A stretch of 32,008 bases of DNA, from assembly GCA_003225075.1 (NCBI GenBank), contig QIAP01000038.1, forward strand, positions 1-32,008, in the 5' to 3' direction. Shown in pieces: positions 12,025 through 31,480 of this stretch. Under the pieces are notes generated by a model that did no database searches, was not told where the DNA came from, and was given only the letters and a program-made list of their open reading frames with translations. The stretch comes from Acidobacteriota bacterium (GTDB lineage: Bacteria > Acidobacteriota > Terriglobia > Terriglobales > Acidobacteriaceae). Position 1 is the first letter of the stretch; the number at the start of each line of letters is the position of its first letter. The position numbers and the translations under genes are program-made.

Positions 12025-12062
12025 TGGGAACTACGCAAGAACAACCTCATTTCACGTTCCCA
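12025..12062. repeat. Inverted repeat upstream of the sigma factor gene
   Basis: TGGGAAC (12025-12031) and GTTCCCA (12056-12062) are perfect 7-base arms 24 nt apart, about 40 nt before the sigma factor start. A TTCACGT word is also repeated (12016-12022 and 12051-12057). The site could be a regulator or ECF promoter element: GGAAC resembles a -35 of ECF promoters, but no -10 partner at the right distance is visible. Confidence 0.4.
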
Positions 12063-12102
12063 AAAAAGAAATTTGAACAATTCAGGCGCATGGGCGGTCT
12101 GC

Positions 12103-12690
12103 ATGAATGAGGGCCAACAGGTGGTCGCAGGACCAGTGATTTTGAGCGAAGCTATGGCGATGGCGCAGGCGGGCGAAGATGTTCTCGAAGCCATGGTCCG
12201 TGAGCACGCGCGCCTGGTATTCCGAGTTGCTTACTCAGTGCTGCGCAACCACCATGATGCCGAAGACGCCACCCAGGAAACCTTTGTCCGCGTATTGCGT
12301 TATGGCAGGAAGTTAGGCGAGATGCGCGACCCAAAAACGTGGCTGGCACGGATCGCATGGCGGGTGGCGGTGGATCGGCGAAAGAAACCGCCGGAGGTTA
12401 GCCTGGACGACAGCGAAAACGCAATTCTGGAGCTTAGTAGTGCAACTGCGAGTGCAGATCAATTTGTGCTTGGTTCTGAAATGTCCCGACTGCTGGAAGC
12501 GCTCATTGCGGCACTGCCAGAACAACTGCGCGATCCCTTGACGCTTTCGACGGTGGAGGAGATGTCGCCGGATGATATTGCAGAAGTACTCAGAATCAAA
12601 CCGGCAGCAGTGCGATCGCGAATGTTTCGAGGGCGCGAGATCCTACGCGAGAAGTTGAGCGCCCTGCTGGAAGGCAAATATGGAGCCTAG
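12103..12690 (+). CDS. ECF-type RNA polymerase sigma factor
   Basis: A 195-residue sigma-70 family factor of the extracytoplasmic-function type. Region 2 (about 33-66) contains HARLVFRVAYSVLRNHHDAEDATQ in two parts plus ETFVRVLR, binding the core enzyme and the -10 element. Region 4 (about 140-190) contains LPEQLRDPLTLSTVEEMSPD then IAEVLRIKPAAVRSRMFRGR, a helix-turn-helix for the -35 element. Region 3 is absent, as expected for ECF factors. An upstream TTG at 12073 and a later ATG at about 12154 are alternative starts; ATG 12103 is a compromise. The next gene overlaps by 11 nt and encodes a single-pass membrane protein, which fits an anti-sigma partner. Confidence 0.9.
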   Translation: MNEGQQVVAGPVILSEAMAMAQAGEDVLEAMVREHARLVFRVAYSVLRNHHDAEDATQETFVRVLRYGRKLGEMRDPKTWLARIAWRVAVDRRKKPPEVSLDDSENAILELSSATASADQFVLGSEMSRLLEALIAALPEQLRDPLTLSTVEEMSPDDIAEVLRIKPAAVRSRMFRGREILREKLSALLEGKYGA

Positions 12691-13324
12691 AGATCATAAG
12701 CAAAATCGAGGACACAGTTTAGATCAGGTACTAGATTCGGCACTGGCGCGGTATAGCCGGGTGGAACCGCGCGCGGGGTTGGAATCCCGCATCAACGCAA
12801 ATCTTCAATCGGAGAGGGAGCGCAGGACACAGAAAGTGCGCGGTCGCCGATGGTGGGCAGTGTTGGCCTTGGTAGCAACGGCGATAGCGATCGCTATGAC
12901 AGTATGGGTGGGATCCACAAGGAAGCCGGCGTCGGGAACCCCGACGGCCGTAGCTATCAACTCTCGTCCGGCGGTACCCGATCTCAAGGGGCCATCCGAG
13001 GTAGTCAGACTGCGCTCCAATGCTGATCACGGGAGACACTTGGCGCGGGTCGGGCCTTTGTCCCGGAAATTGCAGGCGACGATTCAACCGCCCGGCGCCG
13101 CCCCACGGCGGGAGCAGTTTCCTACTCCGACTCCATTGAGCGAGCAGGAACAAATTCTGGTCCGATACGTGACCCAGTTTCGCAGGCACGCGGTAATGCT
13201 AGCGCGAGCACAAACGGAACTCTTGACGCAAGAGAGGCTCGAAGAAACGCAGCCCAGCTCGAAACCAGGCGAGCCGCGACTCAACCAGTTCATGCAAACA
13301 AGTTTCGAGCAGCAGGACAAATAA
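12680..13324 (+). CDS. Single-pass membrane protein, possible anti-sigma factor
   Basis: A 214-residue protein overlapping the sigma factor gene by 11 nt. The first 57 residues are soluble and charged, with a helical LDQVLDSALARYSRVEPRAG segment. A single membrane segment lies at about 58-78 (WWAVLALVATAIAIAMTVWV) behind an arginine-rich stop. The remaining part is low in complexity, Pro/Arg-rich, with a helical stretch near 150-190. This is the topology of an anti-sigma factor holding an ECF factor at the membrane, but no zinc-binding HxxxCxxC motif is present and I recognise no domain. The function is inferred from topology and operon position. Confidence 0.65.
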   Translation: MEPRDHKQNRGHSLDQVLDSALARYSRVEPRAGLESRINANLQSERERRTQKVRGRRWWAVLALVATAIAIAMTVWVGSTRKPASGTPTAVAINSRPAVPDLKGPSEVVRLRSNADHGRHLARVGPLSRKLQATIQPPGAAPRREQFPTPTPLSEQEQILVRYVTQFRRHAVMLARAQTELLTQERLEETQPSSKPGEPRLNQFMQTSFEQQDK

Positions 13325-13335
13325 GGAGAACATAC

Positions 13336-13869
13336 ATGCGCACAAGGATAGCGGTATGGTCGGCAATGCTGGGGTTAGCTATTGGCTGTGCGGTACAGGC
13401 GAGCTATGCTCAAGACGCGGACTCATCACCGAAGCCAACGGCAGAGCAGCGGGCGGCGACCGCCTACCGCCTGGACTTCGCTGTAAACGAAATGGAAGAC
13501 GGAAAGAAGATCAACACGCGGCAATATTCGATGAACTTGAACTCTGGCGACGCCAATAGCGTGAAGATCGGAACGCGGGTTCCAGTGGAAGCGAAACAGG
13601 GTGAGTTCCAATACATCGATGTCGGTACTAACATCTGGTGCAGATTGGAAGAACGAAGCAAAGGGCTGCTGCTGTCTATACGCAGCGAGATCAGCAACTT
13701 TGCTGTTCCCGACCAGCAAAGCCGTGGCGCCATGCCGCTATTAAGACAACTCCAGATTAACGCGAGCACAGTAGCGGTTATTGGCAAGCCCTTAGTGGTT
13801 GGCAGCGTGGATGATCCCAATTCCAAGCGGCAGTTTCAACTTGAGGTAACCACAACGAAGCTGAGATAA
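13336..13869 (+). CDS. Secreted protein, resembles a secretin-type fold
   Basis: A 177-residue protein with a clear signal peptide (cleavage likely after Ala25, SYA-QD). The mature part has YRLDFAVNEMEDGKKINTRQ, then VKIGTRVPV, FQYIDVGTNIWCRLEE, a LLLSIRSEISNFAV strand, and IGKPLVVGSVDDPNSKRQFQ near the end. The order of motifs (GxRVPV, YxDVGxNI, strand pair, GKPxVxGS) recalls the C-terminal beta domain of type II/IV secretins, but it is far shorter, and similar Acidobacteria proteins are uncharacterised (recollection). An AGGAG lies 7 nt before the ATG. It is the third gene of the sigma factor operon, 11 nt after the preceding stop. Confidence 0.7.
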   Translation: MRTRIAVWSAMLGLAIGCAVQASYAQDADSSPKPTAEQRAATAYRLDFAVNEMEDGKKINTRQYSMNLNSGDANSVKIGTRVPVEAKQGEFQYIDVGTNIWCRLEERSKGLLLSIRSEISNFAVPDQQSRGAMPLLRQLQINASTVAVIGKPLVVGSVDDPNSKRQFQLEVTTTKLR

Positions 13870-14048
13870 CAACTGGAACGGCGGTTCGGTATCCTCTCAC
13901 TCGAGAGAAGGGCACCGCCTGCCAGGGGTCAGGATGACCACGCGCATACTGGTGGGAAGGCGCCGCCCAGTTCGCGCCCCTGCATTTTTCTTTTGTGACC
14001 CAAGCATGGGAAGGTACACGATCCGGCGCAGGCGGCGGCCGTCCCTCC

Positions 14049-31111: not shown

Positions 31112-31480
31112 GGGGGCGTCACGGCTTCGACGGAGATGCTTGCGGCCAAGAGGCATGCCGGGGTGCACACACCCGTAATCGTGGGCAAAATGATAATTGC
31201 CAATCAACAGATGGCATACGCTGCTTAATTAGTTAAGTAGCCGTCCTCCGCGGCTTTGCCCGTGGGCTGCGGTAAGGACGTCGCACAGCGGGCTGGCCTT
31301 CTCTGCTACGTCTGGGCAGGAGGGCGAGACTTTCAGGCTAGCGGCTTGCGTTTCTTGTCCGTTCTGAGCGACGGCCGCGAACGTCCTGGGGTAATGCCCA
31401 GGGCATGAACCGGACTAAGCATGTAGGCTCTTGACCAGTAACATTTTCGGACGCGGGTTCGACTCCCGCCGCCTCCACCA
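31112..31480 (+). ncRNA. ssrA: Transfer-messenger RNA (tmRNA, ssrA)
   Basis: Rescues ribosomes stalled on broken messages and tags the nascent peptide for proteolysis. The 5' end GGGGGCG pairs with the 3' CGCCTCC, with encoded CCA (31478-31480). The tRNA-like start GGGGGCGTCACGGCTTCGAC is the tmRNA hallmark, and GGACGCGGGTTCGACTCCCG gives the T-loop arm. The tag frame begins at GCC 31199 and reads ANQQMAYAA followed by TAA (31226-31228), ending in the AA required for ClpXP and Lon recognition. The ClpX and Lon encoded in this window are the expected proteases. Length 369 nt is typical. Confidence 0.95.
31199..31228 (+). other. tmRNA tag reading frame
   Basis: Nine sense codons encode ANQQMAYAA, then TAA, with a second in-frame stop nearby (TAG at 31232-31234). 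The frame and C-terminal AYAA fit tags of related bacteria. The resume codon GCC is chosen because ATAATT precedes it and the length is standard; GGC upstream is a less likely alternative. Confidence 0.75.

Follow-up and report, generated by a model that had tools for sequence, protein, structure and literature searches.

A conserved acidobacterial operon encoding an ECF sigma factor, a putative membrane anti-sigma factor and a short secretin homologue

Introduction

What is a protein that resembles part of a secretion channel doing directly behind a sigma factor gene and the gene for a membrane protein? The question is raised by a stretch of 32,008 nucleotides (referred to here as the window) from Acidobacteriota bacterium GCA_003225075.1, contig QIAP01000038.1 positions 1-32,008, forward strand. 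Three genes, all on the + strand, encode an ECF sigma factor, a single-pass membrane protein (gene 2, protein 2) and a secreted protein of 177 residues (gene 3, protein 3), for which we use the name mini-secretin. A first-pass annotation of the sequence had described this trio as an operon, and had suggested structure prediction and a survey of relatives as ways of following it up. Here the locus is analysed using sequence profiles, structure prediction and comparison with related genomes.

Organisation of the operon

The three genes are closely packed. The start of gene 2 overlaps the end of the sigma gene by 11 nt (12680 versus 12690), and a gap of 11 nt separates gene 2 from gene 3 (13324 versus 13336). 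The first-pass annotation had the reading frames overlapping or lying within 11 nt of each other, and its coordinates are borne out. If the sigma gene begins at the GTG proposed below, the trio spans 12121-13869. The genome carries one copy of it; a second match (E 0.575, with four stop codons) was taken as noise. Coordinates of the features are given in Table 1.

Table 1 Features of the operon and its upstream region. Coordinates are those of the window; residue numbers refer to the predicted proteins.
Feature	Position	Strand	Details or basis
Inverted repeat, 7 nt, TGGGAAC/GTTCCCA	12025-12031/12056-12062	+	
ECF-type promoter-like element, TTGAACA-N16-GGTCTG	12073-12101	+	Alignment of 18 loci
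-35 of the element, GAACA	12075-12079	+	
-10 of the element, GGTCTG	12096-12101	+	
ECF sigma factor gene	12121-12690	+	Proposed start GTG 12121; GAGGG at 12109-12113
Alternative sigma starts	ATG 12103, TTG 12073	+	
Protein 2, putative single-pass membrane anti-sigma factor, 214 aa	12680-13324	+	AF2 model, family profile, NF052375
Protein 2, predicted N-terminal anti-sigma domain	about aa 1-55		
Protein 2, predicted transmembrane helix	about aa 56-78		
Protein 2, predicted disordered linker	aa 83-132		
Protein 2, predicted periplasmic helices	within aa 155-190		
Protein 2, tail motif FPTPTPLSEQEQIL, proposed docking site	13118-13159 (aa 147-160)	+	Core motif counts in trio tails
Protein 3, secreted mini-secretin, 177 aa	13336-13869	+	AF2 model, Foldseek, VIA, family profile
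Protein 3, candidate signal peptide	about aa 1-25		
Protein 3, predicted secretin beta-domain	13456-13866 (aa 41-177)		

The identity of the first gene is clear from Pfam, which finds both Sigma70_r2 (6.4e-16, 58.3 bits) and r4_2 (6.8e-14, 51.7 bits) above cut-off. By these matches the product is an ECF sigma factor of the sigma-70 family, with regions 2 and 4 present.

The upstream region

An alignment of 18 loci shows a consensus just upstream of the sigma gene, [CT]GAAC[AG]-N16-G[AGT]TCT[TG]. With a spacer of 15-17 nt this pattern is found in 22 of 55 distinct upstream regions, compared to a shuffled mean of 0.045 of 55, and is missing from the remaining 33; 18 of the 22 are the loci that were used to draw the pattern, leaving four that were not (L018, L031, L044 and L056). 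Within the window, which belonged to the drawing set, there is one match against 0.05 expected. The conserved ECF-type promoter is the likely control element of the operon.

The same element bears on the start of the sigma gene. ATG 12103 sits one base past the conserved -10-like element, and a transcript from this promoter should therefore begin downstream of it. An in-frame GTG or TTG lies 17-20 nt past the -10 in all 17 aligned loci that were checked by script, and by eye in an eighteenth, L079; of the same 17, 11 have an in-frame ATG immediately past the -10. The start is thus probably GTG 12121, correcting ATG 12103. A second promoter pattern, written for a sister clade, had no match in the upstream regions. 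It may be noted that the words GAGCG, CGTCTGT and TAGAAG are common upstream of the sigma gene in several loci of this clade (in L033-L050), possibly as a diverged promoter.

A scan of the window's own genome with YYGAACRN16GDTCTK gave 11 matches versus 5 for the reversed control, and five further genomes gave 14, 25, 19, 17 and 17 matches versus 9, 10, 18, 11 and 1. Since the pattern exceeds its control in all six genomes, the sigma regulon may be wider than the operon. In the own genome, each of the other ten matches falls in a stop-to-stop frame longer than 100 codons, on either of the two strands, a weak indication that they lie inside genes. None of these ten has an ORF of at least 80 codons starting within 75 nt behind the pattern; the operon is the only match that does, so that gene 3 could be the main product. 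This would suit a reading in which the mini-secretin is a mere regulated output of the released sigma factor, a protein of the periplasm or cell surface that plays no role in sensing. We consider this a possible explanation, short of an even chance, and return to it below.

The first-pass annotation had also pointed to a 7-base inverted repeat upstream of the operon. The repeat is real, and its exact pair was found in none of 100 shuffles. Among all the fetched loci, the pair is present only in copies of the window itself, and a second 7-nt inverted repeat lies within the same 204 bases. The repeat is for these reasons given no weight; it was rejected as an operator, and is probably incidental.

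Conservation of the trio

Relatives of gene 3 are present in 29 of 100 related genomes. A gene 3 profile, which also catches full secretins, matched at least 241 of 396 genomes of the phylum. The named relatives, at 24 loci, belong to Acidobacteriaceae, Candidatus Sulfotelmatobacter and Terriglobia MAGs, and some of these loci duplicate contigs already present among the numbered genomes (L065 and L003 are one such pair).

Once duplicates and three full-length secretins (>500 aa) are removed, the fetched loci contain 89 distinct gene-3-type domains. For 72 of them an ECF sigma match lies on the same strand no more than 2.2 kb upstream, and 69 of these matches score at least 80 bits. Gene 3 of L084 is broken and enters both the 89 and the 72 twice, so that counting by locus gives 71 of 88. 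In L084 the contig ends within the sigma match, and in L140 the match is a fragment of 21 bits. None of 40 control loci, which were chance pattern matches covering 117 kb, contains an ECF sigma match. The first-pass annotation had suggested looking for the trio in relatives, where unlinked genes would have refuted its proposal; what is found there is linkage.

In the clade of the window, the usual order is murB, the trio, a uracil-DNA-glycosylase-like gene and tig (names from sequence). Ten relatives for which the 100-genome search had given no gene 3 match were searched for murB. Five of them have murB and the glycosylase-like gene close together on a single contig, separated by 106, 144, about 290, 766 and 1128 nt. 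In these five, tblastn at E 1e-3 detected none of the trio genes, and a more permissive look at four of them gave only noise. The two longest gaps (766 and 1128 nt) contain other ORFs. As five relatives have no trio gene at all next to murB, the trio is present or absent as a whole at this site, which argues against the mini-secretin being an output only. The trio is a linked, conserved unit in soil Acidobacteria.

Of the 17 domains with no sigma match, four are at contig ends and one is a 61-codon fragment. This leaves 12 real exceptions, some in near relatives (L013, L020, L026, L028 and L121) and others in other families (L131-L134, L137, L138 and L141). These genes are intact and have no neighbouring sigma gene, and the domain must therefore have other uses; the existence of such members is a point in favour of the output reading. 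The mini-secretin domain family is wider than the trio. The proteins of L131, L132, L133, L134, L137, L138 and L141 are short secreted mini-secretins from other acidobacterial families, in varied contexts. A further mini-secretin with no sigma neighbours, at L116:3179-3748 (G092), lies immediately behind a murA-like gene and ahead of a rhodanese-like one (names from sequence).

The third protein

Searched by itself, protein 3 of the window gives no matches in the PDB and none of significance in Pfam. Its family is more informative. A 27-member family profile (A1) gave ten matches in the PDB, all ten being secretins, with a best E of 8.7e-6; a profile of the close short relatives alone gave a weak match (E 1.7). 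L004, L027 and L029 were excluded from A1, L071 and L084 from A4, and L066, L070, L071, L082 and L084 from A5.

AlphaFold2 predicts eight strands for the mini-secretin, with a pLDDT of 80.6. Foldseek gave 32 matches to this model at E<=1e-3, and every one is either a secretin or a chain from a type II/III secretion or pilus complex; chains whose titles omit the word secretin are taken to be secretins. In VIA the same secretin set occupies ranks 1-28 (Z 14.8 to 9.8, the best having rmsd 3.1 over 130 aligned residues), and is followed by an unrelated designed protein at Z 8.6. The viral structure library gave one unnamed match at E<=1e-3. RseB is absent among the matches listed by Foldseek and VIA, where the lists are filled by secretins. 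The resemblance to the secretin beta domain that was noticed in the first-pass annotation is therefore real homology, by profile and by structure comparison, and the structure prediction it called for leads to secretins. On this basis protein 3 is a secretin homologue, with a predicted secretin beta-domain fold.

It is however a reduced one. The Pfam Secretin cut-off is passed by L010, L012, L036 and L143, the last being a short trio member that scores 28.9 versus a cut-off of 27.5, and not by the window protein. Family matches to this profile stop at or before position 126, while full secretins reach 169, and the missing segment (about 127-169) would include the lip and amphipathic-loop region. 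According to part of the text of PMC6532946, a highly conserved amphipathic helical loop adjoins the membrane-spanning lip in secretins. A regular expression for the lip-loop was rejected as unusable; it was absent from all 50 family rows, yet also missed three real secretins on which it was tried. Compared with the secretins of PF00263 (GspD, PilQ, RcpA and phage pIV), the mini-secretin shares the predicted beta-domain fold and the conserved VG-xx-VP ... DVG pattern, but the window copy has no N-domains and offers no evidence of a channel. It is probably unable to form the usual membrane-inserted channel.

Where did such a protein come from? The N-domains, absent from the window protein, have left traces in the family: Secretin_N is kept in several relatives, and in A1 the short forms make up the window protein and 18 of the 26 other rows, the remaining 8 having a full or partial N-terminal extension. 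The trio member L010 retains a region equal to N0-N1 of a full secretin, the N0 label being our assumption. Over 174 aa this region shares 61% identity with the TPR-secretin-cohesin protein of the window's own genome; with the next secretin it shares 28% over 144 aa. Similarly, against the five secretins of the window's own genome the family profile scores 63.2 bits for the TPR-secretin-cohesin protein and 32.2 for the next, and the profile of close short relatives, searched against a small set of secretin loci from that genome, places it first at E 1.1e-11, the next being at 1.4e-4. The phylum's own TPR-secretin-cohesin protein is thus the probable ancestor of protein 3. The mini-secretin differs from it in having no TPR, N-domain or cohesin and in a shortened beta-domain; L010, compared to the full secretin of the window's own genome, has lost 73 residues from the stretch linking N1 to the VG-xx-VP strand, and another 27 ahead of the last strand. 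In the window's genome the TPR-Secretin_N-Secretin-Cohesin protein is encoded at G000:C46 by an open frame of 787 aa at 81186-83546 (780 aa as read at L123:1708-4047), as one of five secretin genes, and two relatives of 761 and 861 aa are found in related genomes.

This kinship raises the idea that the mini-secretin co-assembles with a full-length secretin, such as the TPR-secretin-cohesin protein, and caps or modifies the channel under control of the sigma factor. The predicted beta-domain does still superpose on secretins, and the closest relative is the very protein it would join. Against this, a full secretin has about 27 more residues ahead of its last strand, and co-assembly leaves the tail motif of protein 2, described below, unexplained. 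We regard it as improbable. The N0-N1-equivalent region kept by L010 brings to mind a FecI-FecR-FecA-like arrangement, in which an outer-membrane protein signals to the anti-sigma factor through an N0/STN-type domain, N0 and STN being presumably related. Such a region is lacking from the window protein and from 18 of the 26 other A1 rows, and gene 3 has no TonB-dependent barrel, its 177 residues being taken up by a signal peptide and one beta-domain; this explanation is very improbable.

The membrane protein

The AlphaFold2 model of protein 2 is weak as a whole (mean pLDDT 68.1, pTM 0.27), with helices at 9-26, 34-78, 155-166 and 168-190, and the tail is modelled as two well-predicted helices behind a disordered linker. 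The membrane helix, like the signal peptide of protein 3, was judged by eye or from models.

No domain above cut-off is found by Pfam. A zinc finger or class I zinc anti-sigma domain is ruled out by the translation, which contains no cysteine; the class I zinc motif is given as Hx3Cx2C in an excerpt of PMC7406223. The protein-2 family profile had two weak and unrelated matches in the PDB, and Pfam matches of the family are mixed and all sub-threshold. The NCBIfam model NF052375, 'anti-sigma factor', gives a weak match of 25.5 bits to protein 2 (cut-off 100), and matches 18 of 20 of its close relatives at E<=0.1, the best at 4e-8. The short two-helix cytoplasmic part right before the transmembrane helix in the model is shared with CnrH-CnrY and class II anti-sigma pairs, but protein 2 of the window has no Pfam CnrY match. 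Among the distant trios, the protein in this position has a weak CnrY match in L142 (E 0.015) and a weak zf-HC2 match in L135 (E 0.05), both below cut-off.

A further clue is the company that this domain keeps. The N-terminal part or transmembrane helix of the protein-2 profile also matches beside an ECF sigma gene in ten loci with no gene 3 (L102, L105-L111, L113 and L114). To judge from these matches, it is very probable that protein 2 is an anti-sigma factor. The first-pass annotation had ascribed to gene 2 an anti-sigma topology with no zinc or other known anti-sigma domain. Both parts hold: the model has a single hydrophobic helix and the N-terminal domain is tied to ECF sigma genes, and there is no cysteine and nothing above the Pfam cut-off.

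A tail motif that accompanies gene 3

The periplasmic tail of protein 2 (aa 80-214) carries the motif FPTPTPLSEQEQ. The core of the motif, P-[LPIVMF]-[ST]-x-[QE] and two further positions, is present in 42 of 58 distinct trio tails, versus none of 7 non-trio tails and a mean of 0.6 of 58 in shuffled sequences; the pattern was written after inspecting the tails, and the related sequences in these counts are not independent. It is missing from 16 of the 58. The 7 non-trio tails are those of the ten non-trio loci that passed a hydrophobicity filter. L076 is counted as having no gene 3 only because its contig ends inside gene 3. A looser form is found in 49 of the 58 trio tails and in none of the 7 others (12.1 in shuffles). 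For a second, strand-like motif the numbers are 18 of the 58 and 1 of the 7, with 4.07 in shuffles.

The periplasmic tail itself was found in none of the ten sigma-linked loci without gene 3. Conversely, L112 was found mainly by its protein-2 tail, and has a gene 3 that the initial gene-3 genome search had missed. The co-occurrence of tail motif and gene 3 favours a partner role for the gene 3 product, and speaks against its being an output only.

A possible RseB-like module

On the basis of these observations, the closest known parallel is the RpoE-RseA-RseB system (MucA-MucB in Pseudomonas). As far as the literature sections used here describe it, that system has the same order of sigma factor, single-pass anti-sigma factor and exported third protein, has an anti-sigma factor whose periplasmic part contains helices, and has an autoregulated promoter, as is proposed here for the trio. 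A passage in PMC8103513 states that the RpoE operon encodes RseB and that RseB binds the periplasmic part of RseA, and one in PMC7400510 that MucA and RseA bind MucB and RseB mainly via a helix. The two differ in that protein 2 has no recognisable RseA domain, and that MucB has two domains, the N-terminal one being a half beta-barrel (PMC7400510, same passage), whereas the third protein of the trio has a predicted secretin beta-domain.

We hypothesise that the trio is an autoregulated, envelope-sensing ECF sigma/anti-sigma operon with a dedicated, RseB-like periplasmic third component, and put the chances of this at about even. The sigma factor would transcribe its own operon from the GAAC-N16-G(A/G/T)TCT promoter, and the N-terminal domain of protein 2 would hold it at the inner membrane. 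Protein 3 would be exported and fold as a single stripped secretin beta-domain, which would dock in the periplasm onto the conserved, helical protein-2 tail, in the manner of RseB/MucB. In response to a putative signal, this binding would control the degradation of protein 2, and hence the release of the sigma factor. Site-2-type proteases are present in the own genome and equally in all 14 control genomes, and so provide no evidence for the proteolysis step.

It is because the order and topology of the trio are those of RpoE-RseA-RseB, and because the tail tracks gene 3, that we rank the mini-secretin as a periplasmic partner of the anti-sigma factor above its being a mere output; evenly balanced as the case for a partner is, it is the reading we prefer. 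A more specific version is that a stripped secretion-channel subunit has been recruited as a periplasmic sensor that shuttles between secretin-like partners and the anti-sigma tail, and so reports on the state of assembly of secretins or the outer membrane. This is speculative, and on balance unlikely. If it were true, the phylum would have an envelope-stress system with a sensor of independent origin from RseB.

No description of a secretin domain in a sigma/anti-sigma operon was found in the open-licence literature, as covered by titles and the openings of abstracts. What appears to be new is a three-part sigma/anti-sigma module with a new kind of third part, although the main ECF classification may mention it. 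The analysis gives many unannotated acidobacterial genes a kinship to truncated secretins and a place in a conserved regulatory unit. It also suggests a route by which an envelope-sensing module could arise from a secretion-channel subunit.

Other features of the window

Downstream of the trio and ahead of the glycosylase-like gene, at about 13940-14045, is a GC-rich non-coding stretch that looks similar by eye to one in the murB-glycosylase gap of G001 (L188). The stretch in the window showed no folding excess as a downstream RNA structure (z -0.19). Further along, at 31112-31480, the window contains a tmRNA gene (Rfam RF00023, 188.6 bits).
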